64,000 nt of DNA, taken from NCBI RefSeq assembly GCF_009882935.1, contig NZ_WTVA01000002.1:335827-399826 (forward strand), in the 5' to 3' direction. How positions within the stretch are numbered: position 1 is the first letter of the stretch; each line of letters starts with the position of its first letter. Origin of the DNA: Sneathiella chungangensis (lineage in GTDB: Bacteria > Pseudomonadota > Alphaproteobacteria > Sneathiellales > Sneathiellaceae). The position numbers were made by a program, and so were the translations under genes. The notes beneath the pieces were generated by a model. It was not told where the DNA came from, searched no databases, and saw only the letters and a list, made by a program, of their open reading frames with translations. This document shows, piece after piece, positions 5,617 to 20,427 of the stretch.

Positions 5617-6381
5617 ATGAATCAGCTAACAGATCAGGTCATAATTGTCACCGGGGCGAGCCGGGGCATCGGCGCAGCAGCGGCGATTGCGCTTGCCGAA
5701 AGCGGCGCGAAACTCTGCCTGAGTTCGCGCAGTGCCGCCGCCTGCAGTGGCGTCCTCGAAGAGATAAAAAATGCCGGCGGCGATGCCTTCGCGGCAAGCT
5801 GCGATGTGTCCGATTTTGCGGCCGTGGAGAAGATGGTGGATGAAACGCTCGATCGATACGGGCGGATCGATGCGTTGATCAATAACGCGGGCATCATCGA
5901 TCCCATCGGTGCGATTGCGACCAGCAACCCGGCGGACTGGGCGAAAAATATTTCGGTCAATCTTGTCGGCGTCTACCACGGTACGCGTGCCGTATTGCCC
6001 CATTTCCTCGATCAGAAATCCGGCGTGATTATCAATATCAGTTCCGGGGCGGCGCATGGCCCGATGGAAGGCTGGAGTGCCTATTGTTCCGGAAAGGCGG
6101 GCGTATACATGATGACGCGGGCGACCGCCCTAGAAGCCGGTGAAAAGGGCGTCCGGGTCTATGGATTCGCGCCGGGAGTCGTGGATACGGAAATGCAGGT
6201 CGCGATCCGCGCCTCCGGTATCAATGCGGTCAGTCAGATACCGCGTGAAAACTTGGCATCGGCCGCGGATCCGGCGAAGGCAATCGCCTGGCTATGCACG
6301 GAAGAGGCGCGTGATCTGGCGGGGCAGGAACTGACGATCCGGGACGAGGCGCTACGCAAGAGAATTGGACTTGCCGTTTGA
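5617..6381 (+). CDS. SDR family NAD(P)-dependent oxidoreductase
   Basis: A classical short-chain dehydrogenase/reductase of 254 aa. Landmarks are the TGASRGIG dinucleotide-binding motif (residues 13-20), CDVSD near residue 64, the NNAG motif (about 92), catalytic Ser in INISSGA, and YCSGK giving the Tyr-x3-Lys pair near residue 155. The substrate is unknown. AGGAAGG precedes the ATG. It follows DUF924 closely, and its 3' end nearly touches the start region of the protease gene. Confidence 0.92.
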   Translation: MNQLTDQVIIVTGASRGIGAAAAIALAESGAKLCLSSRSAAACSGVLEEIKNAGGDAFAASCDVSDFAAVEKMVDETLDRYGRIDALINNAGIIDPIGAIATSNPADWAKNISVNLVGVYHGTRAVLPHFLDQKSGVIINISSGAAHGPMEGWSAYCSGKAGVYMMTRATALEAGEKGVRVYGFAPGVVDTEMQVAIRASGINAVSQIPRENLASAADPAKAIAWLCTEEARDLAGQELTIRDEALRKRIGLAV

Positions 6382-6391
6382 CGTTGCCGCG

Positions 6392-7225
6392 ATGAGGGCA
6401 GCCTGGAAGCTCTCTGGCCGACGCCTCTATCATGGCATGGTGGCGGGGATATTCTCGCTTTTCATCAGTTGTCTTCCGCCGGATGCGGCGGCGGATATGT
6501 CTGTTCCCGCCAAGGCGCTTCAGGTTCCCGGTATCAAAGGCGCTGATAATCGGGTGCGGGTTGACATATCAGCCTATCCTTGGCGGATGATAGGTCGCCT
6601 GAACCGGAATGGCAGCCATTGCACGGCTATCCTTGTAGGACCATCGACGATTCTGACAGCCGCCCATTGCTTCTGGGATAAACGGCGCAACCAATGGTCA
6701 GTCCCGAGCGCCTTTCATTTTGTCGTCGGATATGAAAAAGGTGCCGTCAAGGCCCATTCGAAAATCAATGGCTTTACCCTGTCGGATGGCCGCCCCCCGT
6801 CAGATTCGTTACAAAAGCCTCCGGTCGAGGAGGATTGGGCCCTTGCGTCGCTCGACAGGCCGCTCGGCGATCAATTCGGCTATGCGCCGCTCGCGCAATT
6901 CGGTTCTTCCAGGTTACAGCATAGATTGTCGAAAGGCACCACTGTCGTCCAGGCCGGCTACAGCCGTGATATCGCCCATATCTTGACCGCGGATGAAGAT
7001 TGCAAGATCAGCGGCGTCTCCCGCAGCAAGAAGGGATTACTTCTCCTTCATCAATGTGATGCGACGCAGGGGGATTCAGGATCCCCGCTTTTCATATATG
7101 AGGGCGGCGAGTATGAACTTCTGGGAATCCATGTTGCGACATTGACACGAAAATCGGGCGCGAGCGAGGGCGTTGCCGTATCCGTAGACATGTTCGGCGA
7201 TCAGGTTCGGCAGCTGCGAAAGTGA
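6392..7225 (+). CDS. Secreted trypsin-like (S1) serine protease
   Basis: A chymotrypsin-fold protease with the full catalytic triad: His in LTAAHCFW, Asp in EEDWALASLD and Ser in TQGDSGSPLF. A hydrophobic stretch near residues 17-35 ending in an Ala-rich DAAAD site looks like an export signal, so the mature enzyme is probably periplasmic or extracellular. Cys pairs around His and Ser fit the fold. Length (277 aa from the ATG at 6392) is that of a single S1 domain without PDZ. An in-frame TTG at 6365 would overlap the SDR gene and is less likely. Its target is unknown. Confidence 0.87.
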   Translation: MRAAWKLSGRRLYHGMVAGIFSLFISCLPPDAAADMSVPAKALQVPGIKGADNRVRVDISAYPWRMIGRLNRNGSHCTAILVGPSTILTAAHCFWDKRRNQWSVPSAFHFVVGYEKGAVKAHSKINGFTLSDGRPPSDSLQKPPVEEDWALASLDRPLGDQFGYAPLAQFGSSRLQHRLSKGTTVVQAGYSRDIAHILTADEDCKISGVSRSKKGLLLLHQCDATQGDSGSPLFIYEGGEYELLGIHVATLTRKSGASEGVAVSVDMFGDQVRQLRK

Positions 7226-7243
7226 CCGGAAACATAAAATTTT

Positions 7244-7271
7244 ATGAAATTTCATCGAAATTTATTATAAT
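7244..7271 (+). promoter_or_regulatory. Putative promoter with palindromic operator
   Basis: A perfect 12-bp palindrome ATGAAATTTCAT (7244-7255) lies just ahead of a consensus -10 box TATAAT (7266-7271) and covers the -35 position. It is about 100 nt upstream of the small acidic gene at 7372. The site looks like a regulator-bound promoter, but the regulator is unknown. Confidence 0.45.
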
Positions 7272-7371
7272 CTACCTCAAATGAGGGATGAAAAGCCGGA
7301 TGGCGAGCGGTAATGTAAGAAAGAATTAACCAAGTATGTTCTTTCGAGCCGCAGGTTGAGCGGGGGAAGTA

Positions 7372-7695
7372 GTGACAATGAGTGATGGGCAGACAGACGG
7401 CTCCGGGATGGCCGAAGAAGATCAAATCGCGCAGGAAGAGAGCGCGAATGCCGATCTGACTTTTCTGGAACTGGACCAGAACGGGACAGTCGATCTCGAC
7501 GCGCTGTTCGATGCCCTGAATATTGCGGCGGTGGAAGGGAATGCCTCCGTGGAATTCCTCCCCGGCGGGAATGAGGGCGGCGGAACTTTATCGATTTCTG
7601 GCTCCGATCTAACGCTCGGCACCGCAGCTGCGGAAGATTTACCGGATGTTTCCGATCTCTTGCTTAAAAGCAGTATCGCGTCGGACGAATCCTGA
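7372..7695 (+). CDS. Small acidic protein of unknown function beside the type I secretion locus
   Basis: A 107-aa protein very rich in Asp/Glu and small residues, with no Cys and no signal peptide. The central part (GTVDLDALFDALNIAAVEG, then a Gly-rich turn, then LSISGSDLTL) loosely resembles the C-terminal secretion regions of type I secreted proteins, and the sequence TAAA occurs near residue 85. Neither resemblance is strong enough to assign it as substrate. It converges with the HD-GYP gene, with stop codons 2 nt apart. The start is GTG at 7372 (GGGGGAAG 2-4 nt upstream) or ATG at 7378. A strong-looking -10 box lies upstream. It may be a small substrate or regulator of the locus, or unrelated. 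Confidence 0.6.
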   Translation: MTMSDGQTDGSGMAEEDQIAQEESANADLTFLELDQNGTVDLDALFDALNIAAVEGNASVEFLPGGNEGGGTLSISGSDLTLGTAAAEDLPDVSDLLLKSSIASDES

Positions 7696-7697
7696 CT

Positions 7698-9758
7698 TCA
7701 GCCTCTTTTCATTTCAATATTGGCCTTGAAGGCGGCTCCGATTTCGGTTTCGAAGAACCGGACCATGGCCTCGACCACAGCCGGGTCATATTTTTCCGGG
7801 TTGTTCTTGAACACGCGCAACGCCTCATCGACACCGATCGCCTCGCGGTAGGATCTCGGTGAGATCCGGGCGATCAGAATATCCGCCATGCCAAGGATCC
7901 GGGCAGGCATGGCAATGTCCGCTTCCGTGAGGCCCTTGGGATACCCACTACCATCCAGCCGCTCGTTAATCTGCGTTACCGCATCCAGAACCTGTTTGTC
8001 CACATCCGCATTGGACAGGATCTTTTCCGACGTCAGGACATGACTTTGCATGATTTCCTGTTCCTTGGGGGTCAGGCGGGATTCCTTTTCCCGGATTTGA
8101 CGCGGAATGGAAATCTTGCCGATCTGCGATAGATGGGCGCCGGTATTGATTACCTTGACGACCTCTGCTGACAGGCCAAGTTCCGCTGAAATGTGATTGG
8201 CAAGCTGCGCCACCCGTAGTGAATGATCCGAAAGATAGGGGTCGTTCGCTTCCAGCATCTGCGAGAGGACGGTAATCGCCTTGCGGTCCATCTCTTCCTT
8301 TCGGCGCTGATACTTGACATATTCCGTAATGTCACTGCTGACCGTCACGATGCCGAGAAACGCACCCTCTTCATTCAGGAAACGGGATTTGGCGACGCGC
8401 AGGGTCCGGACACCGTCACGTGTTTCGATCTCGACAAACGCATTGACAGTCTGTTCCGTCGCGATGGCTTTGCGGTCGTGTTCGGCCAGGTCGCGCGCGG
8501 CCTTCTCGCCGAAAAGCTCCCGATCCGTTTTGCCGGGGATCGACCGGAGCGGGTAATCGGCAAGACGCGCGAGTGAGGGGTTCGCATAAATGTAGCGCCC
8601 TTCAGGGTCGGTCAGGCCGATCAGCTCGTCAATGGTGTTGTTGATGCTTCCCAGAAGCCGCCGCTGGGCATTGATCTGGGCAGCGAATTCCTTGTATTGA
8701 TGGGCAAGCGCCCGGGCATTCTGGCCTTTCAGCATCAACCAGATGACCGTTAGAATGGTAAAGATGATAACCAGAAAGCTGATGGCAAGTCCGACAACGA
8801 ACAAGTTGTAGGTCCGAAGGGAGGCAAGCGCCTCGCTACTGTCGACCTGCTGGAATACAACGAGATTGGTCCCATCGACAAGGGCGCCGGATGAATAGAA
8901 GCTGTTGCCGCTACTGTCCGTGGTTTCACGAAAGCCGATGGCATCCGGCGCAATGCCGGCATCGGCCGTCGCTGAAACGTAGGGTGGCTTTCCGGGAAAC
9001 AGTTCGAAATACTTGCCGCCCGTTTCCTGATATAGCCGCGTCACGTGCTCACTGCTGCTATATGGCGATGGTTTCAGGAAGTCCGACAGCGCATCTGAAG
9101 CCGGGACGGTGAGCAGAAGAATGCCGACGACATCGGCAGTGTTATCAGTCGGATTGCTTTGCGCCGCCCGGATTGGCAGTAAAAAATCGAATACCAGACC
9201 GGCATTACCAGCCCGGATCGGCAGGAGCCTGATTTCCGCCCTGTCATATTGCTCCTGTGCTTCGGCCCGTTGATCTTCCGTCAACGCTGGCGCGCCGCCC
9301 GAGGCGAGATAGGCGCGACCATCCCGGCCAATCAGATACGCACCGATCAATCCATCCTGGTTGGCGAAATTGGTAAAGGCGTTTTGCATATAGGGAAGCT
9401 GTTCGTTCAGCGATCTAGGTAACTTCCCGCCACCGGCGATGTTTATTTCCGTTGCAAACAACTGGAACAATTCATTGCCGGCAATCCTGTTGGAATCCTC
9501 AACCGTGCTGGCGAGCCAGGTTTCTATCACCTGTGCCTTACCGGCGGCGCTGATATCCAGCCGCTTTTGCAGCTCGCCAACCAGTTCCTGTTTGCGGGAC
9601 TGGATTGCATAATCGCCAACGAAGTAGCCGAGGACCGCCAGCACGACAAAAAATAATGCCGCAAATTTCCAGGGTGCCTTGCGGATCAGGCTGCTGTCAT
9701 CGGGGGCGTTGCCGGACAGGAATGAATTCAACTCAAACTTCAGCGTCGCGTCAGTCAT
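7698..9758 (-). CDS. Membrane protein with periplasmic sensor, PAS and degenerate HD-GYP domain (1)
   Basis: 686 aa. Transmembrane segments at about residues 32-50 and 319-342 flank a periplasmic region of roughly 265 residues that looks like a Cache-type sensor. A PAS domain (about 370-490) and an HD-GYP domain (about 500-670) follow. The first His (DHSLRVA) and the DGSGYP loop (D602) remain. The HD dyad is replaced by S544-Q545 (AHLSQIGKI), and the HHE before the GYP loop reads I597-N598-E599. It is therefore unlikely to hydrolyse c-di-GMP and is better seen as a receptor or relay. The ATG at 9758 overlaps the stop of the upstream protease-like gene (ATGACTGA) and has AGGGGA upstream, implying coupled translation. 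It is last in the secretion operon. Confidence 0.85.
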   Translation of the reverse strand: MTDATLKFELNSFLSGNAPDDSSLIRKAPWKFAALFFVVLAVLGYFVGDYAIQSRKQELVGELQKRLDISAAGKAQVIETWLASTVEDSNRIAGNELFQLFATEINIAGGGKLPRSLNEQLPYMQNAFTNFANQDGLIGAYLIGRDGRAYLASGGAPALTEDQRAEAQEQYDRAEIRLLPIRAGNAGLVFDFLLPIRAAQSNPTDNTADVVGILLLTVPASDALSDFLKPSPYSSSEHVTRLYQETGGKYFELFPGKPPYVSATADAGIAPDAIGFRETTDSSGNSFYSSGALVDGTNLVVFQQVDSSEALASLRTYNLFVVGLAISFLVIIFTILTVIWLMLKGQNARALAHQYKEFAAQINAQRRLLGSINNTIDELIGLTDPEGRYIYANPSLARLADYPLRSIPGKTDRELFGEKAARDLAEHDRKAIATEQTVNAFVEIETRDGVRTLRVAKSRFLNEEGAFLGIVTVSSDITEYVKYQRRKEEMDRKAITVLSQMLEANDPYLSDHSLRVAQLANHISAELGLSAEVVKVINTGAHLSQIGKISIPRQIREKESRLTPKEQEIMQSHVLTSEKILSNADVDKQVLDAVTQINERLDGSGYPKGLTEADIAMPARILGMADILIARISPRSYREAIGVDEALRVFKNNPEKYDPAVVEAMVRFFETEIGAAFKANIEMKRG

Positions 9759-10467
9759 TTTTCTCGTCCCCTGAGGCTTCTTGCGCAACCAGGAAATCTT
9801 TCGGAATATGCGCCCATCTTCTCTTTTCATTTACCGAATAGAGCGGCACATAATAATTCACGAGGCGTTCCTCCAGAATTGTGTCGTTTAGACTGTCAAG
9901 AACGTAGCGTTTTCCTCGCAGGCTGACACTTAAGACGGCATGGTCCTTGTTCCGGAGAACATCGTTGGCGACAACGATCCGCATGGAATCCGGATCAAAC
10001 CCGAGCTCTTTCAGGCTTACATATTTCATAATCGCGAAATCGCGGGACCTGCCGCCATTCGAAAGGAATTGAAGAGGCGTGGCCCAGTCATCACTTGTAG
10101 CCGCCGCATCCTCTTCCTGGATATGTTTCCAGCCATTCAGGAAACGGTTTATTTCCTGCAACTGCGCGCGCCTGTTAGTCCGTTGCAATTCAGCAATTTT
10201 GGTTCGCCACAAGGTCATTTGCTGCGACTGGCAGTCTTCAATGCGGTCATCGCATTTGGATGCCGCTTTGGCCAGTTCGGGAAAACTTGACATTACCTCC
10301 AGCCAGCGCGGCAGGGCGGCAAGATTGTCGGACGATATTTCGACCATGCCGAACAATCCCTCCTCCGTTACTTCGGCGCGGGCAGGCGCGCCGGCGACGG
10401 TCCCGAACAGGAAGAAGGCGGAGAATAGGGCCAGAGATATCCGTTTATGTCCTGCGAAAATGCGCAT
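9751..10467 (-). CDS. LapG-like transglutaminase-fold protease homologue lacking the catalytic Cys
   Basis: A 238-aa exported member of the bacterial transglutaminase-like cysteine proteinases (BTLCP, LapG family), with an N-terminal signal (about residues 9-31, ending APARAE). Aligning with its paralogue at 16353-17048, His176 (KDHAVLSV) and Asp191 (YVLDSL) are kept with identical spacing. The nucleophile position is Ser141 (codon 10045-10047) and the segment reads GGRSRDFA where active members have GDCEDYA. The flanking Asp and Glu, which bind calcium in characterised LapG proteins, are both Arg. This is probably a catalytically dead decoy, inhibitor or adaptor. Its start overlaps the HlyD stop by one base (TGATG), and the HD-GYP gene overlaps its end. 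Confidence 0.86.
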   Translation of the reverse strand: MRIFAGHKRISLALFSAFFLFGTVAGAPARAEVTEEGLFGMVEISSDNLAALPRWLEVMSSFPELAKAASKCDDRIEDCQSQQMTLWRTKIAELQRTNRRAQLQEINRFLNGWKHIQEEDAAATSDDWATPLQFLSNGGRSRDFAIMKYVSLKELGFDPDSMRIVVANDVLRNKDHAVLSVSLRGKRYVLDSLNDTILEERLVNYYVPLYSVNEKRRWAHIPKDFLVAQEASGDEKND

Positions 10468-11795
10468 CAGCGTTCCCTCAGGGCCGTATCCCGGGTTTTC
10501 AGGATCGGCTTCAGAATATAGTCGAGCACCGTTTTATGCCCGGTGAGGATATCGACGGAGGCGACCATTCCCGGAATGATCGGGTAGGTATTTTCCCCGC
10601 GTTTCAGGTAGTTCTGATCGGTGCGGACAATGATTTGATAATAGCTTTCGCCCGATTTTTCGTCGACGATCGTATCGGCGCTGATCCGTTCCAGTTTTGC
10701 CGGCAGACCGCCGTAAATCGAATAATCATAGGCCGTGATTTTGACGGTTGCTTCCTGTCCCGGACGCAAAAATGCGATGTCCGACGGCCGGATATTCGCC
10801 TCCACAAGAAGGGTATCGTCGATGGGGACTATTTCTATGATATCCTGTCCCGGCTTCACGACACCCCCGATGGTTTGAATCTTCACATCCTTGACTTCGC
10901 CGGCGACGGGAGAGCGTACGTCTGTTCTGGCCACCCGGTCCTTGACGCCGAGGATTGCCTGCCGGGCCGCTTCATAGTCGGCGCGAACCTGGCTGAGTTC
11001 CTGAGCGGCGCCGCTCTTGAAACTCAGGATTTTCTCCTCGATACGCTGATTTGCCTCCTTCAGCGCCCCCTCGACCCTCGGCAAGGAGAGTTCGGAGGCG
11101 GAAATCTGTCCGCGCAGATCGTTGACCTCTCGCCTCAATTTCAGAGAATCGACCTTTGGAACGATGCCCTTTTTGACAAGTGGTTCGGTAATTTCCATTT
11201 CCTCATTTGCCAACGCAAGACTGGCCCGCAATTGTCTTAGTCGTCCATTGATCTCTGCAATCTCCTGCTGGCGCTGTTGCGCCTGCTGTCGCAGAATCTG
11301 GATTTGCGATTGCAATTCTGCTTGTCTTGCGTTGAACAGGTTCTGCTCGCGAACCGTTATGTCCTTGCGCTCGGCCAGCAATTCCGCGGGGAAGGTCAAC
11401 GGCTCGCCCGTCGCTTCCGCTTCAAGACGGGCAATGCGTCCCATCAGGTTTAGGTAGTTGGATTCAATTTCCCCGGCGCGCGAGGCAAACCCCGTATCGT
11501 CAATCCGAAGAATAATCTGGCCCTTCTCGACGATATCTCCTTCATGCACGAGCAGTTCACGAAGAATGCCGCCTTCCAGATTCTGGATAATCTGTACCTG
11601 GCTGGACGGAATTACCTTGCCATCGCCCCGCGTTACTTCATCGAGAACGGCATTGCTTGCCCAGAAATAGCCGACGACGAAGAAGGCGACGATGCCAAAT
11701 AACAGCATATATGCGCGCGGATGCGGTCCCTGCAATTTAGCGGCAACGACATCCGACGCGAAATCCGAGTCATCCCATTTGAGGTTTGTCGACAT
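10467..11795 (-). CDS. HlyD-family type I secretion periplasmic adaptor (LapC-like)
   Basis: A 442-aa membrane fusion protein that links the inner-membrane ABC exporter to TolC. It has one N-terminal transmembrane helix (about residues 29-48, LLFGIVAFFVVGYFWA), a biotinyl-lipoyl half-motif EGGILRELLVHEGDIVEKGQ, a long coiled-coil region (about 125-285, rich in Gln/Glu/Arg), and the C-terminal beta-barrel segment with VRSPVAGEV and LVEANI. The order and length match HlyD/LapC/PrtE. It begins 2 nt after the stop of the ATPase gene and its stop shares a base with the next start, so it is an internal gene of a tight operon. Confidence 0.95.
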   Translation of the reverse strand: MSTNLKWDDSDFASDVVAAKLQGPHPRAYMLLFGIVAFFVVGYFWASNAVLDEVTRGDGKVIPSSQVQIIQNLEGGILRELLVHEGDIVEKGQIILRIDDTGFASRAGEIESNYLNLMGRIARLEAEATGEPLTFPAELLAERKDITVREQNLFNARQAELQSQIQILRQQAQQRQQEIAEINGRLRQLRASLALANEEMEITEPLVKKGIVPKVDSLKLRREVNDLRGQISASELSLPRVEGALKEANQRIEEKILSFKSGAAQELSQVRADYEAARQAILGVKDRVARTDVRSPVAGEVKDVKIQTIGGVVKPGQDIIEIVPIDDTLLVEANIRPSDIAFLRPGQEATVKITAYDYSIYGGLPAKLERISADTIVDEKSGESYYQIIVRTDQNYLKRGENTYPIIPGMVASVDILTGHKTVLDYILKPILKTRDTALRER

Positions 11796-11797
11796 CG

Positions 11798-14158
11798 TTA
11801 TTCCCTCGTCCCGCGAACCGTCGGTTTGCCGACCGTCGCCGTTACCGACTTGGTGGTATTTTTGCCGCTCTGGCCAAGTTTCAGGATTTCATCACGCGGT
11901 CCATCGGCGGCAACCTTGCCGTTCCCGAGGACGATAATGCGGTCGACCAGCGAGAACAGGGACGTACGATGGGTGACCAGAAGGACCGTTTTACCCTCCA
12001 TATAATTCTTCAGGCGGGCGATCAGCCGGCGTTCGGAATTGAGATCCATCGAACTTGTCGGCTCGTCCAGCATCAAGATCGGCGGATTGGGCAGGAAAGC
12101 GCGGGCAAGGCCAATCGCTTGCCGCTGCCCGCCGGACATCGTCGCGCCTTTCTCGCCGACATGCAGGTCGTAACCGTGCGGATGTTTGCTGATGAAGTCA
12201 TGAACGCCGGAGAGCTTGGCCGCATTCAGGATCATTTCGTCATCCGCCTGTGGATGCCCCATGGTTATATTCTGGCGCACCGTGGCCTGGAAAAGCGTGA
12301 TGTCCTGCATCACGCTGCCGATGCTCCGGCGGATGTCGGAAGGGTCAATCTGGCGGATATCCGTCCCGTCAATCAGAACGGCACCTTCATCCGGTTCGTA
12401 GAGATTTATGAGTAAGCGGGAGATTGTCGTCTTGCCGGATCCGACCGGGCCGATAATGCCGACTTTCTCACCGGCGCGGATCTTGAAGGACACGTTGTTG
12501 AGCGAGGGCAGGTCGCTTCCCGGATATTTGAATGTCACGTCCTTGAATTCGATATCTCCGCGAATGTTTGGACGGCTGAGTTGCCGCTTTTCCGCCCCTC
12601 TTTCCACCGGCAGGGACATGATTTTGTTAAGCCCTTTCAGCGCGACCATCGCCTGATTGAGGCGGGTCAGCAGGCCTGCGATCTGGCCAAGGGGCGCCAT
12701 CGTTCGGCCGGTCAGAATGGTGCAGGCTATCAAGGCGCCGACGGTTATGCTCGAATCCGGCTCGCCCATCAGGATAACGCCGTAAACGACGACGCCGACG
12801 GTCACGAGCTGCATCGCAGCGGCGGAAAGATTGATGCCGAGGCCCGCGAAAAACCGTGCTGCGACGCTTGTTTGCGCCGTCTTGCCGACGAAGCGTTCCC
12901 ACTCCTTCTGCATGTGTCCTTCGATCCCCATGCTTTTCACCGTATCCAGGGCGGAGATCGTTTCGATGATCACGCCATGTTTCTGCGCTGCCTCTTCCGA
13001 AGTCTTGGCGACGGCGCGACGCATGGGCCATTGCAGGAAGAGCCCGACAAACAACACGATCGGGATCGCCACGGCGGGAACAATGAAGAGAGGGCCACCA
13101 ATCAGATATATGATAAACAGGAAAATCGCGAGAAACGGCAGATCGACCAGCGCTGTCACGGTAACCGAGGTGAAAAAATCACGAAGGGTTTCGAATTCGC
13201 GCAGGTGGTTGGCGAATGCGCCGGCGGAGGCCGGACGTGCCTTGACCTGCAGATTGAGGACCTGCTCGAATATCCGGCTTGATAAAAGGATATCCGCGCG
13301 CTTTCCGGCATTGTCCACGAAATAGGCCCGCAGGGTCTTTAGCAAAAGATCGAAACCGATGACGGTGATGACGCCGATGGCCAGCACCCAGAGGGTCTCG
13401 AGCGCCCGGTTGGGAACAACCCGGTCATACACATTCATGATGAAAAGCGGGCTCGCGAGCGCGAAGCTGTTGATTAGGAAGGCAGCGATAAGAACCTGTA
13501 CAAAGGTCGGCCAGAATTGCCACATCGTTCCCCAGAACCAGGAGCCGGTCCGCTGCAGCAGCTTTTCGTCCTTATCGACACGGTATTTGAAATTCGGCCG
13601 GGTAAGGATGGCGTAGCCGACGTATAGGTCTTCCAGTTCCTTGAGCGGCAGGCTGTCCGTGCCTTCGCCCGTCTCCGGGAAAATAACTTTTGCCCTGCCG
13701 TTGTCCCGCTCCAGCAGCACGCACGCGCGGCGACCGTTCAAAAGGATGACGCAGGGCAGGACAACGTCGGGAATATTTTCAAGCTTGCGGTTGGTGATGC
13801 GCGCGCTGATGCCCACCCGTTCGGCGGCGCGCACGAAAAGAGACGGCGTAAGCTTGTTGTCTTCAAGCGGCAGACCATAGATCAGCGCATCCGGTGTGCG
13901 TGGATCGTCAAACAACTTGGTGAGAGCGGCCAGACAGCCGAGGAGGGGGTCCTGATCGGCGCGCGTCACTTCGGAAAGGTTTATCTGCCAGTCGGCCGCA
14001 TTTTCAGTTTCGCCGCTTTCCACCGGTTCCGACGGCGGCCGGCTATCACGGGCGATCGTATCCTTTTCGACCTTCGTCGCATCGCCCCCTTTCGATACGA
14101 AAAGGTCTTCAGCGGCCTCGATGTCCAGAGTAACGGGATTGCGCGAATTTTCGTTCAC
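11798..14158 (-). CDS. Type I secretion ABC exporter, LapB/LssB type with degenerate C39-like domain
   Basis: A 786-aa exporter. The N-terminal region (about residues 60-190) resembles a peptidase C39-like domain whose usual catalytic Cys is absent, as in LapB-type exporters of large RTX adhesins. Six membrane helices follow (about 220-480), then a nucleotide-binding domain with GPVGSGKTT, MSGGQRQ, ILMLDEPTSSMD and the THR switch His. The GTG at 14158 is preferred over GTG 14206: AAGGA sits 7 nt ahead of it, and it overlaps by four bases (GTGA) with a small upstream ORF. It leads the order exporter, HlyD, pseudo-protease, HD-GYP protein. The substrate is not in this window. Confidence 0.94.
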   Translation of the reverse strand: MNENSRNPVTLDIEAAEDLFVSKGGDATKVEKDTIARDSRPPSEPVESGETENAADWQINLSEVTRADQDPLLGCLAALTKLFDDPRTPDALIYGLPLEDNKLTPSLFVRAAERVGISARITNRKLENIPDVVLPCVILLNGRRACVLLERDNGRAKVIFPETGEGTDSLPLKELEDLYVGYAILTRPNFKYRVDKDEKLLQRTGSWFWGTMWQFWPTFVQVLIAAFLINSFALASPLFIMNVYDRVVPNRALETLWVLAIGVITVIGFDLLLKTLRAYFVDNAGKRADILLSSRIFEQVLNLQVKARPASAGAFANHLREFETLRDFFTSVTVTALVDLPFLAIFLFIIYLIGGPLFIVPAVAIPIVLFVGLFLQWPMRRAVAKTSEEAAQKHGVIIETISALDTVKSMGIEGHMQKEWERFVGKTAQTSVAARFFAGLGINLSAAAMQLVTVGVVVYGVILMGEPDSSITVGALIACTILTGRTMAPLGQIAGLLTRLNQAMVALKGLNKIMSLPVERGAEKRQLSRPNIRGDIEFKDVTFKYPGSDLPSLNNVSFKIRAGEKVGIIGPVGSGKTTISRLLINLYEPDEGAVLIDGTDIRQIDPSDIRRSIGSVMQDITLFQATVRQNITMGHPQADDEMILNAAKLSGVHDFISKHPHGYDLHVGEKGATMSGGQRQAIGLARAFLPNPPILMLDEPTSSMDLNSERRLIARLKNYMEGKTVLLVTHRTSLFSLVDRIIVLGNGKVAADGPRDEILKLGQSGKNTTKSVTATVGKPTVRGTRE

Positions 14159-14337
14159 AGATTTGTCCTTGTCATTAACCGGCTCAGCCTGTCGGGCGTA
14201 TCGCACATATACTCTGCGAATTCGCCGGCAGGCCGGAGCAGGTCAGATGGCATCCGCCGCTTCATTTTAATGCCTGAAATCATGATGTCGTCCCGTCCGA
14301 GCCTCTCCGTAAAATCCGGCTTTTTCATGATCTGCAT
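14155..14337 (-). CDS. Possible small coupled ORF upstream of the type I exporter
   Basis: A 60-codon ORF whose TGA stop overlaps the exporter GTG start in a GTGA junction, a typical sign of translational coupling. The product is basic and Met-rich (MKRRMPSDLLRPAGEFAEYM in its middle), with no membrane segment or known motif. A GTGGA lies 5 nt ahead of its first ATG; a second ATG follows three codons later. It may be a leader peptide that sets expression of the secretion operon, or chance. Confidence rests mainly on the overlap and the strong RBS placement for the next gene. Confidence 0.35.
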   Translation of the reverse strand: MQIMKKPDFTERLGRDDIMISGIKMKRRMPSDLLRPAGEFAEYMCDTPDRLSRLMTRTNL

Positions 14338-14950
14338 TCAAAGTCCACTGTAGCCGAATGATTAAAAATTTCCGAGCCGTTACCCTTTTCCGGCCATTTC
14401 GATGAATCCGTCGGTCCCTCCACGTTAAAGCATTGACGATATTGAACGCTAATTTCGTGAAAATGCAGTTAACATACTGACAAAAGCAGCCTTTTTAAAA
14501 ATCTTATCATGCGCGGCCATAGGCTGCAAAAAAGCCAAATCTGCCCGTATCACGGGTGATCAGATTGTAAATATATAAGAATAATTGCGGGCTTTCGTCC
14601 CAACTTTCAACAAAAATTAACCATGAATTACCGCAATGTGACGTGCTGCTGCTGTATCCGCCGCCGCTGAACCGTTGTTTGGCTGCCAGAAAAATCATGC
14701 AAGGCTCTGTTTTAATTTAGAAGTTGCGTCGTCAGCTATATCTCTGTTGTATTTTAGACACAGCATATCCGGCTCCCCATGATTTTTCCGCCGCCTGCGG
14801 TCTTATAAAGTTGATTGATAGCGGAAAGAGCGCGTACATTACCGGCGAATGAAAACAGGTTTTGATCGGTTCATTTGTTATAAGTCTGGCAAATATGAGT
14901 GGGGTTGAATATTTGTGTGGTCGACGAAATGGACCTGATGGGAGAGGGGC
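14338..14950. promoter_or_regulatory. Divergent promoter region between the secretion operon and tolC
   Basis: About 610 bp without a convincing gene, clearly richer in A+T than the flanks. It holds an imperfect hairpin at 14538-14566 (outer arms AATCTG and CAGATT, inner arms CCCGT and ACGGG). It also has a near-CtrA box at 14617-14631: TTAA, seven bases, then TTAC, containing the TTAACCAT half-site form. A short ORF at 14507-14698 is not persuasive. Promoters for both directions presumably lie here, but no clear -35/-10 pair stands out. Confidence 0.4.
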
Positions 14951-16294
14951 ATGATGCTTAGAAACCGTGCGGTAAAGACGAAAAATGTTCTTTCCGCCAG
15001 TATTCTAACAGCTGTATTCGGTAGCTTTCTTGCGGTGGGGGCCGCGCAGTCTGAAACGTTGAATGAAGCCGTACAGCAAACAGTTTCGACCTATCCCGAA
15101 ATTGCAGAAGCCTCGGCAAACCGCCGGGCGGTGGATCAGGAACTTGAACAGGCCAAAGGCCTTTATCTACCCTCCCTCGATCTGGAAGCCGGAATCGGCT
15201 ACGAATGGACCGACACGGTTACCATCGATAACGAGGATCTCCGCCGGACAGAGTCAAGCTTGCTGCTGGTTCAGACCCTGTATGATGGCGGGTTCAGAAG
15301 CGCGGAAGTCGATCGTCAGGGCAACCGGGTCGATAGCGCCGCCTACCGCGTGAAGGAGCGGGCGGAAGCGATTGCGCTCGATGCTGTTCGGGCATATCTG
15401 GATACACTGCGTAGTCTCGAAATTGTCGAACTTGCCAAAGAAAATGTTGAAAAACATCGTCGTACCTTGAATGAGATTCAAGATCGCGTTCGGGCGGGAC
15501 AAAGTGGCATTGGTGACGATCAGCAGGCGCTGGCTCGGCTTGCCGCCGCGGAAGATACGCTGGTTGAAACCATGCGGGCTCTGGATGACGCGGAAATCAC
15601 CTATCTCCGGGTTGTCGGCGCTCAGCCTGTCAATCTTGAACTGCCGGTTTTTCAGGACGGCGTGCTTCCCGATAATATCGACGATATCGTCGCGCTTGCG
15701 CTTGAGAATAACCCGGATATCCTGTTTGCCTCGTCAGACATAAAAACATCCGAAGCCGAAATCCGCGCGACCCAGGCAAGTTATTATCCAACGGTAAATC
15801 TTGAGGTTGGCGCCTCCGCCGATAACAATCTGGACGGTGTGGAAGGTCATAATGATGACTTCCTTGCGATGCTTCGGCTGCGCTACAACCTGTACCGCGG
15901 CGGCATTGATGAGGGCCGCGAGAAAGAGGCGATAGCCCGCAAGGCGGAAACGGAACAGCGGAAACTCCGGTTCGAACGGCTTGTTGAAGAGGAGGTCCGG
16001 CGGAGCTGGAGCGCCCTCGCACGGTCGGAAGCGCGAGCCGAAGTTCTGGCCGCGGCTGTTGTCGCCAACCGGGAAGTCGCATCTACCTATCGCCAGGAAT
16101 TTGAAATCGGCCAGCGGGATCTTCTGGATCTTCTGGATGCGGATAACGAGCTTTTCAATTCGCGCACATCGTTGGTGACCGTTGAATATGCGGTCCGGTT
16201 TGCAAAATACCGTCTGCTCGCCACCATGGGCACGCTCAACAGCACACTCGGCGTTACCCTGCCGCAGGAAGCGACGTTGCCTGGTAAAGGCTAA
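14951..16294 (+). CDS. tolC: TolC-family outer membrane channel
   Basis: A 447-aa outer-membrane efflux protein with a cleavable signal (to about residue 35, VGAAQSETL) and two tandem OEP repeats. Each begins with a helical segment on the pattern of LNEAVQQTVSTYPEIAEA and IVALALENNPDILFASSD. The second repeat carries ATQASYYPTVNLEVGAS and LRYNLYRGG, characteristic of TolC. It should form the outer-membrane part of the type I exporter encoded divergently. GGGAGAGGGG precedes the ATG at 14951; an adjacent ATG at 14954 is possible. Confidence 0.94.
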   Translation: MMLRNRAVKTKNVLSASILTAVFGSFLAVGAAQSETLNEAVQQTVSTYPEIAEASANRRAVDQELEQAKGLYLPSLDLEAGIGYEWTDTVTIDNEDLRRTESSLLLVQTLYDGGFRSAEVDRQGNRVDSAAYRVKERAEAIALDAVRAYLDTLRSLEIVELAKENVEKHRRTLNEIQDRVRAGQSGIGDDQQALARLAAAEDTLVETMRALDDAEITYLRVVGAQPVNLELPVFQDGVLPDNIDDIVALALENNPDILFASSDIKTSEAEIRATQASYYPTVNLEVGASADNNLDGVEGHNDDFLAMLRLRYNLYRGGIDEGREKEAIARKAETEQRKLRFERLVEEEVRRSWSALARSEARAEVLAAAVVANREVASTYRQEFEIGQRDLLDLLDADNELFNSRTSLVTVEYAVRFAKYRLLATMGTLNSTLGVTLPQEATLPGKG

Positions 16295-16352: not shown

Positions 16353-17048
16353 CTAATTGTTGGCGATTTTCGGCTTGTGACGCCACCAGCCATTTTCGTT
16401 TACAGAATAAATCGGCTTGTAATGACGGATCCGGCTTGAGTCGACCACCTGACCGATCTGGTTGTCCAGCACCAGTTTCTTGCCCTTGAAGTTCACGACG
16501 AGAATGGCATGCGCGACGCCGAGATTGACGTCCTGAAGAACAACGATTTTCATATCCTCGGCAGGCCAGCCGAGGGCGCGCAGAGTGAAATATTTGACAA
16601 TCGCGTAGTCTTCGCAGTCACCAAAGCGGGCGAAGAATTCCTTCGGAATTTCCCAATAATCCTTAACGCCCCAGTTTACCGGATCGAGGATGTACCGAAA
16701 CAAATTCATATGCCGGTTGACCTGGGCGAGTTGCTCTTCCTTTGACAATTGTTGCCATTCGTCGATCAGCGCGACCCATTTCTGGTAGGCGCACCGGTTA
16801 TATTTTCCGGTAACGCAGTCGCCGGGGTCGTCCTTGTAGGTGTTCAGAACCTTCCGCCATTTCGGAAAAGGTTTAAGGCCCGAATACGGGGTTTCCTGAT
16901 ATCCGAATAATCCGGCGGCCTGCGCGGGGGAGGTTGATGGCGTTAACAGCAGCAGTGCGGCGAGTATCACTACCCGCAAAACCACAAATTTTCGTAATCC
17001 GGCTGATGTCACCTTGGGTTTCCCTGCGTGTCTGGAAATGCCGTCCAT
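16353..17048 (-). CDS. LapG-like periplasmic cysteine protease (BTLCP) with intact triad
   Basis: A 231-aa exported transglutaminase-like cysteine peptidase. A hydrophobic signal (about residues 25-45) ends PAQAAG. The catalytic residues are Cys145 (FGDCEDYAIVKYF), His180 (GVAHAILVV) and Asp195 (LVLDNQ), with the Asp and Glu next to Cys that bind calcium in LapG. In pseudomonads LapG cuts the N-terminal retention module of the adhesin LapA and frees it from the surface; the same job is inferred here. The gene converges on tolC with a 58-nt gap and is divergent from the second HD-GYP gene (133-nt gap). GGGGAGAA precedes the start. Confidence 0.92.
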   Translation of the reverse strand: MDGISRHAGKPKVTSAGLRKFVVLRVVILAALLLLTPSTSPAQAAGLFGYQETPYSGLKPFPKWRKVLNTYKDDPGDCVTGKYNRCAYQKWVALIDEWQQLSKEEQLAQVNRHMNLFRYILDPVNWGVKDYWEIPKEFFARFGDCEDYAIVKYFTLRALGWPAEDMKIVVLQDVNLGVAHAILVVNFKGKKLVLDNQIGQVVDSSRIRHYKPIYSVNENGWWRHKPKIANN

Positions 17049-17181: not shown

Positions 17182-19350
17182 ATGCCCTCTCGTGAAATAT
17201 ATAACCGGATTGTCATGGCCGATATTGAGATTGAAGCATCAGGAAAAAAGAAGACCTACAAAACGCTGAGCCTCGGCGTGTTGCTGCTTCTTGCCGTTAT
17301 CGCCGCGGGGATCTGGGGCACTTTTAAATTCGTTGATGAACAGCGCGTGCGCGACGTTCGGAATTGGGAAATCCGTCTTGGAATTGTTGCCGACAGCCGC
17401 GCGGCAAGCGTCGATGAATGGCTCCGCAAGCAGGAGCAGGCGATCGGCACCCTCGCGACGAATGCATCTTTACAGGTCTACCTGACACAGTTGGTAATCG
17501 AGACCGCGGAAAACGGCAATTCGATTTCCGAGGTTCCGGAGGCCGGTTACCTCATCAATCTTTTGAATAACCAGGCGGTGATCAGTGGTTTCTGGGAGCC
17601 GGAGGAGCCGCAGATAAGGGCCAATGTCGCGCGACCGGGCCGGGCGGGAATCGGGCTTACGGATGCATCGGGAACGCTTCTCGTTTCCAGCGGCAACATG
17701 CCGCCGATGAACCCGACCATCCGCGCGGCCATGGCCAAGGCCGGTGAAGGACAGGCGGCGCTTATCGATCTTTACGAGGGGATAAACGGTGATCCTACGC
17801 TTGGCTTTGTCTGGCCGGTCTTCGCCGTTCAGGACGAAGGGAGCAGCAAGGATATCATCGGATATGTGATCGGCCTCAGAACAGTGGAGTCATCGCTCTT
17901 TCCGCTCCTGTTTCAGCCGGGAGACACGTTGCAGACAGCGGAGAATTATCTCGTCCGCCGTGACGGAAATCTGGTGCAATATATCTCGCCGCTCGCCGAT
18001 GGTACGCTCGCCCTTGCCCGCAAGCTAAGTATCAAGGATGACCTTGCCGCGGCTTTCGCTGTTGAGCGGCCCGGCGATTTCGCCATCCTCTCGAACTATC
18101 TCGGTAGCAAGGTGCTGGTCACCGGGCGCGCCCTGACAGTCGCGCCCTGGTATCTTGTGCGCACGGTGACGGAGCGTGAAGCGCTTGCGGAAACCGACCA
18201 GCGGCTCTCCACGATGCTCGGAATCTTTCTGCTTCTGATTTTTGCGGTTGCCGGAACGGTTGTTGCCGTCTGGCGGCACGGTACGTCGATCAGGGCGGCG
18301 GAGCTGGCGCTGCGTTACAAGGAAATTGCCAACCAGCTGAAAGACCGTAGCGAGTTTTTAAAGATTGTTACCGATCAGCAGCCGACCGCCATCGCGGTAT
18401 TCGATTCGGAAGACAAATATACCTTCGCCAACAGCGTCGCCGCCGCAGACGTCGATATCTCGCAAGACGAAATGATCGGTAAAAAGGTTGCCAGTGTCCT
18501 CGGCCCGTCGCAGGCCAAGGAAATAATCGAGATGAGCAACCTGGTGCGCAAAGATTACGAGCCGCGTTCGCAGATCAGCCGCCTGCACAGCGATGACGCG
18601 GAAAAGCCGGAACGGGTCATCAAATCCGATTTTGTCCCTTTGCGCTCGGCCAGGGTAAACAGCAAAGAGGTCTTGACCGTCTTTCAGGATATTACCGATG
18701 TCGTCATGGCCCAGGAACGGCGAGAAGAGGTCATGCGCGATCTCGTGTCAACACTTGTCGCCTTTGTCGATCGCCGCGATCCCTATTCCGCCGATCAGTC
18801 GCGCCGCGTGGCGAAGGTCGCGGTTGCCGTCGCGCGTGAAATGGGTGCCTCCGACGAGTTGGTGCGCACGGTCGATATCGCCGGCAACCTGATGAATATC
18901 GGCAAGATACTGGTTCCGGCGGATATCCTGACCAAGACCAACAATCTGACGAAAAAGGAAATGGACGTCATTCGCAATAGCCTGATTTCGAGTGCCGACC
19001 TGCTCGAAGAAGTCGATTTTGACCTGCCGGTTGCCTCGACGTTGCGTCAACTTCAGGAAAACTATGACGGCAGCGGCCAACCGAACGGCCTCGTCGGAAC
19101 GCAAATCAGCGAGGCGGCCAGAATTATTGCCGTCGCCAACGCATTCGTCGGCATGGTCAGCCCGCGGGCCTATCGGGGGGCTCTCGGGTTCAGCGAAGCG
19201 ATAAAGAATTTGCTGGATGCGGCGGATACGCGCTTCGACCGCCGTGTGGTCAGCGCGCTTATCAATTATCTCGAGAATCGCGGTGGGCGCGAGAACTGGA
19301 AATATTTCTCGGAAAGCCTTGATGAGAAGCCTTCCGACATCGGAAGTTAG
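17182..19350 (+). CDS. Membrane protein with periplasmic sensor, PAS and fully degenerate HD-GYP domain (2)
   Basis: 722 aa with the same layout as the HD-GYP protein at 7698-9758. Membrane segments lie near residues 31-52 and 346-364, with about 290 residues of Cache-like periplasmic region between them, then PAS (about 390-510) and HD-GYP (about 525-705). All metal ligands appear lost: the first His is Gln (DQSRRVA), the HD dyad is Met571-Asn572 (NLMNIGKI), the third His is Ser, HHE reads Leu624-Gln625-Glu626, and the later Asp is Asn (VANAF). The GYP loop reads DGSGQP. It cannot be a normal phosphodiesterase. It is divergent from the active LapG-like gene, which suggests it senses or holds that protease. 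AAGG precedes ATG 17182; ATG 17215 is an alternative. Confidence 0.86.
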   Translation: MPSREIYNRIVMADIEIEASGKKKTYKTLSLGVLLLLAVIAAGIWGTFKFVDEQRVRDVRNWEIRLGIVADSRAASVDEWLRKQEQAIGTLATNASLQVYLTQLVIETAENGNSISEVPEAGYLINLLNNQAVISGFWEPEEPQIRANVARPGRAGIGLTDASGTLLVSSGNMPPMNPTIRAAMAKAGEGQAALIDLYEGINGDPTLGFVWPVFAVQDEGSSKDIIGYVIGLRTVESSLFPLLFQPGDTLQTAENYLVRRDGNLVQYISPLADGTLALARKLSIKDDLAAAFAVERPGDFAILSNYLGSKVLVTGRALTVAPWYLVRTVTEREALAETDQRLSTMLGIFLLLIFAVAGTVVAVWRHGTSIRAAELALRYKEIANQLKDRSEFLKIVTDQQPTAIAVFDSEDKYTFANSVAAADVDISQDEMIGKKVASVLGPSQAKEIIEMSNLVRKDYEPRSQISRLHSDDAEKPERVIKSDFVPLRSARVNSKEVLTVFQDITDVVMAQERREEVMRDLVSTLVAFVDRRDPYSADQSRRVAKVAVAVAREMGASDELVRTVDIAGNLMNIGKILVPADILTKTNNLTKKEMDVIRNSLISSADLLEEVDFDLPVASTLRQLQENYDGSGQPNGLVGTQISEAARIIAVANAFVGMVSPRAYRGALGFSEAIKNLLDAADTRFDRRVVSALINYLENRGGRENWKYFSESLDEKPSDIGS

Positions 19351-19362
19351 CAGCCGTTTACC

Positions 19363-20427
19363 TTAAAGGAGTGGGGTCGCCTGAAGCGCCGCCGGTCCGG
19401 TCAGGATTAATTTCACGACCTCGCTTTGCCGGCTGGTGTCGGTCTTGCGGAAAATCTGCCGCAGCTGGGATCGAACGGTATGCATGCTCACCCCCCATTC
19501 ATCAGCAAGATCATCAAGCTTGTGACCGTTTGTCAGCCCGAGAGCAAGCCGCCCTTCGGCTGGTGTCAAACCATAGAGACGGCAAATCGTTTCAATCGAT
19601 AGCTCCACCGGTTCGGCCGGATCGGAGACGAACAGGACCGCCCCTTTGCCGGCGACGCCCGTGCCGATCGGCGCGACCATGACATTGAGCGGGTAATCGC
19701 TCTCCATGCGCGTCAGGGATATGGCGAAATCGCCTTCCGATTTCGTGTCGTCAGGCGGCGAAAGGGTATCCGCGAGCAGTTTGGCAAGCGCCCGGCTCTC
19801 TCCCGGCAGGGTCGCCCGGCAGATCCGATCTGCGCCGACGACAAGTCCGTCCCCCTGTTCGAGGTAGCGTTTCGCCTTACCGTTAAAGAACAGGATCTTG
19901 GAATCTGCCGTTACCAGAATTACGCCGATGGGCAATCTATTGAGGACCGCCGTTGCGGAATCAAGGAGCGGCGCCGTTTCGGCGCTCCGCCGGTGTCCCT
20001 GATGACGTTGGATTGCGTTCAGGAGGCTGCGGGAAATGCCATCGGTGGTTAGCTGGCTCTTGATGAGATAGTCCTGGGCCCCCTTACTAATCGCTTCTCG
20101 GCCTACTTTTTCGTCTTCATCGGTCATGACGACGACGGGAGTCTGCGGAATTTTCTGCGACAGAAGGGAGATTGCGTCAAACCTATTTTCCGACTTTTCC
20201 GTCAGATCAAGGATGATCACATCGCCATTTTGCGACCGGGCCGCCTTGGCAAAGTCGTCAAGGCAGGCAACATGCTCGAATGAAAATTTTGCATTCGCGG
20301 CGTTAGAGAGCAACCAGCTCAACTGCTGGGCATCCTCCTCCTTGCGTCCTATAAATCGGACGGTCGCGATAGAATTTTCGTCCATTGGGTACGATTTTCC
20401 GGTTTTTGCCTGACGGGCCTCGGCCAT
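19363..20427 (-). CDS. Response regulator: receiver, PAS-like middle, LuxR-type HTH
   Basis: 354 aa. The receiver domain (about residues 20-145) keeps the phospho-acceptor Asp (VIILDLTEKS), the Thr (VVMTDEDE) and the Lys (DYLIKSQL). The usual acidic pair at the first strand is replaced (VRFIGRKEED), so phosphorylation may be unusual or absent. A PAS-like middle (about 155-270) precedes a C-terminal LuxR helix-turn-helix (LTPAEGRLALGLTNGHKLDDL, then MHTVRSQLRQIFRKT). No histidine kinase is adjacent. It converges with the second HD-GYP gene (12-nt gap), so it may control the secretion locus. ATG 20385 is a possible alternative start. Confidence 0.85.
   Translation of the reverse strand: MAEARQAKTGKSYPMDENSIATVRFIGRKEEDAQQLSWLLSNAANAKFSFEHVACLDDFAKAARSQNGDVIILDLTEKSENRFDAISLLSQKIPQTPVVVMTDEDEKVGREAISKGAQDYLIKSQLTTDGISRSLLNAIQRHQGHRRSAETAPLLDSATAVLNRLPIGVILVTADSKILFFNGKAKRYLEQGDGLVVGADRICRATLPGESRALAKLLADTLSPPDDTKSEGDFAISLTRMESDYPLNVMVAPIGTGVAGKGAVLFVSDPAEPVELSIETICRLYGLTPAEGRLALGLTNGHKLDDLADEWGVSMHTVRSQLRQIFRKTDTSRQSEVVKLILTGPAALQATPLL

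Follow-up and report, generated by a model that had tools for sequence, protein, structure and literature searches.

In 2026, an HD-GYP-based replacement of LapD was described in the Desulfovibrionales (PMC13090378). As the main text of that report describes it, the receptor DvhD has Ser-Gln in place of the HD motif and Met-Asn in place of the double His, shows no metal, and does not hydrolyse c-di-GMP whatever ions are added. It binds c-di-GMP, with three molecules per dimer and Tyr621 as a phosphate contact, and has been proposed to restrain the protease DvhG (PMC13090378). The word “alphaproteobacteria” is absent from this main text, where the class-level distribution is given as a figure. 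A comparative study of c-di-GMP genes in alphaproteobacteria likewise mentions neither LapD nor degenerate or inactive domains in its main text, and no description of an alphaproteobacterial system pairing a dead HD-GYP protein with a BTLCP was found in the literature searched, subscription journals lying mostly outside it. In the LapD-LapG system of Pseudomonas, the receptor is built on a dead c-di-GMP enzyme domain, the output is a periplasmic BTLCP, and the adhesin is exported by a T1SS. Degenerate HD-GYP proteins of the PA2572 type are non-catalytic and have a regulatory role, and we know of no BTLCP or T1SS partner for them.

Organization of the locus

The locus described here lies in a 64,000-nucleotide stretch of DNA from the marine bacterium Sneathiella chungangensis (contig NZ_WTVA01000002.1; “the window”) and contains T1SS genes together with two units, each formed by a degenerate HD-GYP protein and a BTLCP (Table 1). 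Like HD2, DvhD is a dCache-PAS-degenerate HD-GYP receptor that has lost its metal ligands and is encoded beside a BTLCP and a T1SS. HD1 shares with DvhD the Ser-Gln replacement, and in both cases the T1SS genes are followed by the protease and then by the receptor; the B1 and HD1 reading frames overlap, whereas HD2 and B2 are divergently arranged. The Sneathiella locus also differs from DvhD-DvhG in comprising two units, one of them with a pseudoprotease.

Table 1. Genes of the two HD-GYP/BTLCP units and their neighbours (positions in the window)
Feature	Position	Strand	Description
HD1	7698..9830	-	DvhD-type degenerate HD-GYP, 710 aa, HD replaced by SQ, GYP kept
B1	9751..10467	-	Pseudo-LapG; Ser for Cys (GGRSRDF); LapG fold predicted
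HlyD-type T1SS membrane fusion protein	10467..11795	-	TIGR01843, 417.3 bits (cut-off 208.65)
LssB-type T1SS ABC transporter	11798..14206	-	N-terminal C39-like domain; TIGR03375, 941.5 bits (cut-off 693.1)
TolC-family T1SS outer membrane channel	14951..16294	+	TIGR01844, 295.3 bits (cut-off 225.15)
B2	16353..17048	-	LapG-like BTLCP (Peptidase_C93), Cys-His-Asp intact (GDCEDY), divergent from HD2
HD2	17182..19350	+	722 aa: TM, dCache-like periplasmic domain, TM, PAS, degenerate HD-GYP
Receiver-domain regulator	19363..20427	-	Probable LuxR-like C-terminus; convergent with HD2

The family of the ABC transporter, TIGR03375, presumably includes LapB. All 16 Sneathiella cluster loci (L064-L079) have the receiver-domain regulator in this place, as does Oceanibacterium. 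In the whole genome (3.81 Mb, 15 contigs), PF13487 and PF06035 are each matched twice, every match falling within this locus, and there are nine GGDEF matches, eight of them above the cut-off. No adhesin gene adjoining the T1SS was found among the listed open reading frames of the window. Near HD1, the frame at 6365-7225 (+) encodes a secreted trypsin-like serine protease, judged by eye from its AAHC and GDSG motifs.

HD2 has lost its metal ligands and is conserved in that state

HD2 is encoded by an uninterrupted frame of 722 codons; its residues 528-689 match Pfam HD_5 (E = 8.2e-35) and residues 398-507 match PAS_4. We aligned its ligand positions with those of its relatives, DvhD and HD-GYP domains that retain the HD motif (14 in the site table). 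The first His is replaced by Gln539, HD by Met571-Asn572, the third His by Ser600, HHE by Leu624-Gln625-Glu626, GYP by Gly632-Gln633-Pro634, and the last Asp by Asn653. The original prediction, that HD2 lacks every metal ligand it named and reads GQP for GYP, is borne out by this alignment, and the HD and HHE metal ligands of a catalytic HD-GYP domain are not present as a set. One more Glu ligand has been reported for trinuclear HD-GYPs. HD2 is also the more degenerate of the two proteins, as had been proposed: HD1 has Ser-Gln for HD but retains GYP, the last Asp and both the first and the third His.

One scan returned 253 relatives of HD2, in alphaproteobacteria; among the best 80, which were kept, the nearest named ones are from Sneathiella genomes. 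The site table was built from 122 domains, less three long-branch rows (none of them HD2), and holds 81 HD2 and 22 HD1 rows. In the HD2 rows the HD motif is replaced by Met (75/81) and Asn (77/81), the third His by Ser, Ala or Gly (79/81), and the last Asp by Asn (80/81). Met-Asn and the Asn for the last Asp are thus a fixed signature of the clade, and this conservation indicates that the loss of ligands goes beyond chance. Of the 81 rows, 71 retain the first His and nine have Gln there, so its loss is limited to a minority that includes Sneathiella. The middle position of GYP is unconserved within the clade (a gap in 41 rows, Gln in 11, Tyr in 8, other residues in the remainder), and we rejected GQP as a key character. 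In the HD1 rows, the HD motif reads Ser (18) or Ala (4) followed by Gln (17), Gly (4) or Ser (1); the third His is kept in 21 of 22, the last Asp in all 22, and the GYP Tyr in 20.

Selection was estimated by the Nei-Gojobori method in four close Sneathiella pairs. The dN/dS values are 0.025-0.051 for HD2 (three pairs, the fourth being saturated), 0.055-0.080 for HD1, 0.042-0.096 for B1 and 0.046-0.106 for B2. Since dS is high in three of the four pairs, the safest comparison is G019-G002, which gives 0.025 for HD2, 0.055 for HD1, 0.088 for B1 and 0.090 for B2. The HD2 reading frame is open in most genomes. Progressive decay of HD2 is rejected by the low dN/dS together with the replacements fixed across the clade. 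The suggestion that HD1 and HD2 stand at different stages of degeneration therefore does not hold: each has its own fixed set of replacements and is under strong purifying selection, and HD2, judged from these alignments, is in a state of its own and not half-decayed. In one locus HD2 is read as two overlapping frames (L079:12250-13860 and 13790-14365), through a frameshift or an assembly error, and in S. glossodoripedis (L128) it is split at the same place.

An intact and a Cys-less protease

B2 has the Cys-His-Asp triad and the acidic residues beside the Cys that characterize LapG and the BTLCPs, although its score against the NCBIfam LapG equivalog (93 bits) is below the cut-off of 320. Its N-terminus appears by eye to be signal-peptide-like, unlike DvhG, which is membrane-anchored. 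The pairing of HD2 with an active LapG-like protease is thereby upheld at the level of motifs. The pairing extends beyond this genome: in 62 named loci HD2 is full-length and preceded by at least 1.5 kb of sequence, and 49 of these have a divergent BTLCP beside HD2, in every case with the Cys motif. L135 and L156 have a BTLCP beside HD2 as well, which the overlap rule had missed. In the other 11 of the 62, HD2 has no adjoining BTLCP; two Rhodospira genomes among these keep a BTLCP elsewhere in the genome. A tight HD2 subclade (L157, L161, L164, L168, L170) has no BTLCP as an adjoining gene, and GQP occurs in those of its members whose GYP motif was read.

In B1 the catalytic Cys is replaced by Ser in 22 of 22 aligned Sneathiella sequences, and the acidic residues on either side are gone too. 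An AF2 model of B1 keeps the BTLCP fold, with LapG (4fgq, E = 5.4e-12) as best match. From its sequence and its dN/dS, B1 of Sneathiella is a predicted pseudoprotease, catalytically dead yet retained under selection, so that one pair at the locus has a protease active by motif and the other an inactive one, as originally proposed.

Outside this lineage the picture for B1 is different. An HD1-type gene with a BTLCP was found in 11 of 20 regions around HD1-profile matches in other genomes, and GDCED[YF] is kept in 10 of the 11 pairs sampled from other alphaproteobacteria. Whenever these regions extend to the HlyD and ABC genes, the latter lie upstream on the same strand, as in Dvh. By these motifs, the second unit, HD1/B1, which is related to B2/HD2 and shares its stock, generally comes with an active protease of its own in other lineages. 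The contrast between the Cys loss in Sneathiella and the active-motif partner in 10 of 11 HD1-type pairs elsewhere is what is new here. As the Cys is kept in most relatives outside the lineage, its loss is read as later than the HD1/B1 unit itself; for the protease, the proposed split of roles is to that extent upheld. The ten relatives with an intact Cys offer natural before/after comparisons for B1.

The Cys of HD1-type BTLCPs is replaced by Ser in Sneathiella, by Pro in Oceanibacterium and by Gly in a proteobacterial MAG (L187); it is also lost in two Rhodospira genomes and, independently, in G181, where it is Asp. The tree requires at least two such events. Every lineage with a Cys loss retains a further BTLCP whose Cys motif is present; in Rhodospira this gene is unlinked. 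Two genomes (G159, G307) hold both units with intact B1 motifs, and all B2 rows in the tree, theirs included, carry the Cys, which argues that a second protease permits the loss in B1 and does not force it. G181 has two HD1-type units (L228:11106-11885 and L240:11003-11725); the BTLCP has Asp for Cys in one and an active motif in the other, so that an active and an inactive partner occur together here independently.

In a wider survey of the phylum, 397 genomes were searched with the HD1 profile and eight matched at E ≤ 1e-55, including one (G407) from another class; the loci of G407 and G626 hold HD2-type pairs, not HD1-type ones. A B2/HD2-type pair also occurs in another class of the phylum, at L277:6401-7126 (-) and 7318-9429 (+), beside TolC, ABC and HlyD genes. 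In plasmid records a DvhD fragment gave 155 matches, every one below 60% identity, with generic HD-GYP proteins among the 40 listed.

The fold of HD2 and its putative c-di-GMP site

HD2 comprises a dCache periplasmic domain, a PAS domain and a C-terminal HD-GYP domain, with membrane helices judged from sequence and model. A profile search of solved structures placed DvhD chains at the top (9rc0, E = 4.9e-66; 9rbz, E = 4.6e-53). The AF2 model of HD2 (27 sequences, pLDDT 83.5, pTM 0.47) has among its leading matches the PAS/HD-GYP part of DvhD (E = 7.8e-18), its c-di-GMP-bound HD-GYP domain (E = 3.2e-17) and, separately, its periplasmic domain (9rc2, E = 6.2e-9). The C-terminal fold is also that of the HD-GYP phosphodiesterases PmGH (4mcw) and PA4781 (4r8z); unlike these, HD2 is without the metal ligands, and catalysis of the PmGH type, as it is known, would be impossible. 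LapD has a LapD/MoxY periplasmic domain followed by HAMP-GGDEF-EAL, where HD2 has dCache, PAS and HD-GYP; the domain search found neither LapD_MoxY_N nor GGDEF-EAL in HD2. A search for LapD through PF16448 gave no match in the S. chungangensis genome, and the same search matched no control either.

When the canonical c-di-GMP site of DvhD is traced through the HD2 rows, Arg650 and Leu577 are each found in 80 of 81, an aromatic residue at Tyr652 in 73, and Met646 in 75. The HD2 of the window keeps the contacts Arg650, Leu577, Tyr652, Met646 and Tyr523 and is without Tyr621, Lys582 and Glu668. Tyr621, the GYP Tyr, is Gln in this protein and missing or changed in most HD2 rows; Lys582 and Glu668 are unconserved in them. 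Arg650, Leu577 and Tyr652 are equally conserved in intact HD-GYPs, so their retention indicates a nucleotide-type pocket and not c-di-GMP specificity.

Ancient divergence of the pairs

A quick tree of 122 HD-GYP domains (81 HD2, 23 HD1, 16 intact, DvhD and one other) joins the degenerate rows in one group (support 98), in which HD1 with DvhD (90) stands apart from HD2 (81). The careful tree was built from 68 rows (31 of the 81 HD2) after nine columns of the ligand region had been taken out; it separates the degenerate group (100/99) from 14 HD-GYPs with an intact HD and resolves HD1 plus DvhD (99/92) with HD2 (100/99) as sister clade. That the ligands were lost a single time depends on this sample, as the intact rows are all of the same class. 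HD2 further differs from DvhD in its Met-Asn for HD, its replaced third His and its variable GYP; the replacement of the last Asp is shared with DvhD. Because HD1 groups with the Desulfovibrio protein apart from HD2, the split between HD1 and HD2 is far older than the genus, and a recent local duplication is rejected.

The BTLCP tree has 88 rows, labelled by the type of HD-GYP gene within 1.5 kb; 39 loci, mostly Sneathiella near-copies, were skipped, and L080 and L132 are one genome present twice. Among the 78 labelled rows, 77 fall in the clade that matches their HD-GYP neighbour. The lone mismatch, L187_8763, is a labelling artefact: it has an HD1 gene on one side and an HD2 gene on the other and took its label from whichever was closer. 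When the catalytic motif is left out, a tree of 54 rows still recovers B1 as a clade (100/99). Gammaproteobacterial LapG forms a long branch that does not root B2 reliably, and DvhG is absent from this tree. The trees support a paired divergence of HD-GYP and BTLCP that appears ancient, neither local nor a staged decay. Of the earlier proposal of duplication with a split of roles, the part stating that related pairs were inherited together is retained, and local duplication is not.

How the two pairs came together is nearly balanced. Separate acquisition, in which a DvhDG-like unit was transferred beside a resident B2/HD2 pair, has slightly less than an even chance against duplication in one ancestor. 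It is favoured by the clustering of HD1 with DvhD and not with HD2, by a distribution that looks patchy for B1/HD1 and is widespread for B2/HD2, and by the position of the two units on different contigs in G159 and G307. The partners nevertheless split in parallel with no swaps seen, a pattern that paired duplication predicts as well.

Proposed role of HD2

By analogy with DvhD and LapD, HD2 is probably a catalytically dead c-di-GMP receptor that controls B2 and hence the release of an adhesin. The ligand loss, the conserved replacements, the constraint on the gene, the pairing with an intact protease, the T1SS context and the resemblance of each of the three domains to DvhD in sequence and fold back this reading. 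Against it count the changed GYP Tyr and the unconserved Lys582 and Glu668, the 11 loci whose HD2 has no adjoining BTLCP, and the adhesin side, with no adhesin gene found beside the T1SS and no obvious cleavage site in the candidate. The HD-GYP domain would bind cytoplasmic c-di-GMP without metal, and the PAS domain, stalk and TM helices would pass its state to the dCache-like periplasmic domain, which may restrain the divergently encoded B2. At high c-di-GMP, B2 would be held and the T1SS-exported adhesin would remain anchored; at low c-di-GMP, B2 would cleave the retention module of the adhesin, and the cell would be released.

HD2 might instead control B2 without reading c-di-GMP, its HD-GYP domain serving as a dimerisation scaffold and its input being a periplasmic dCache ligand or a PAS signal. 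Both domains are sensor folds, and the absence of the GYP Tyr from most HD2 rows (lost or gapped), with Lys582 and Glu668 unconserved, is what such a scaffold would allow. However, the near-complete retention of Arg650 and Leu577, and the frequent retention of the aromatic at Tyr652 and of Met646, speak against it, as do the low dN/dS along the whole gene and the metal-free binding of c-di-GMP that the main text on DvhD describes (PMC13090378); we regard a pure scaffold as unlikely. Far less credible still is a residual phosphodiesterase or other hydrolase with an unusual metal site: Glu626 and Lys575 are still present, yet almost every row has other residues in place of HD, HH and the last Asp, and DvhD, with a similar ligand loss, hydrolyses no c-di-GMP with any ions according to the same text (PMC13090378). 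That every named ligand is replaced could also mark HD2 as a decaying, pseudogene-like relic of a phosphodiesterase. This is extremely improbable and already contradicted by 81 rows with the same fixed replacements and by the dN/dS range, with the frame open in most genomes and the partner gene retained alongside.

With HD2 taken as a c-di-GMP receptor, the Desulfovibrionales replacement of LapD has a large alphaproteobacterial sister clade, which suggests that dead HD-GYP receptors stand in for LapD broadly. Proteins of the HD2 type would probably be annotated as phosphohydrolases by automatic pipelines. We also put forward, as a tentative and rather doubtful possibility, a switch with two receptors. 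In it, B1 would attach to the retention module of the adhesin or to the HD receptors but not cut, and would thereby shield the adhesin from B2 or titrate B2, each arm being gated by its own dead HD-GYP domain. If this antagonist reading were true, a second messenger would control a protease together with a pseudoprotease at this locus. The conserved pseudo-LapG is a testable case in which loss of protease function changes one half of an adhesin switch.

A candidate adhesin

On another contig (C10) of the same genome, L264:4787-8914 (-) encodes a 1375-aa protein with FecR, Calx-beta, VWA and RTX matches, adjoining a CHASE2 cyclase. It matches the NCBIfam LapA retention model below the cut-off, and we consider it a lead as a candidate substrate of B2. 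Its N-terminal region was matched in 19 of 30 genomes searched and in 16 of 18 of the genus Sneathiella, S. chungangensis included; the two Sneathiella genomes without a match have completeness values of 56% and 66%, and identity is just 35-39% in three of the 16 matches. Close Sneathiella relatives have in common a DPxxIxPEAG-like linker after the retention domain, which is reminiscent of, but not identical to, the DP plus [T/A/P]AAG site of LapG substrates. The candidate shows no obvious [T/A/P]AAG site; one TAAG falls inside the FecR match and was not credited as a cleavage site. Two tandem small secreted-looking proteins, L265:6806-7429 and 7556-8242 (+), both match the N-terminal region of the candidate, and a weak hit of the LapA retention model coincides at least in part with the second. 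These families are linked once more in G275, where a BTLCP of another type is encoded in the vicinity of a CHASE2 cyclase and of a FecR-like protein (L269:5474-6202 (+), 7099-9240 (-) and 9274-11940 (-)).
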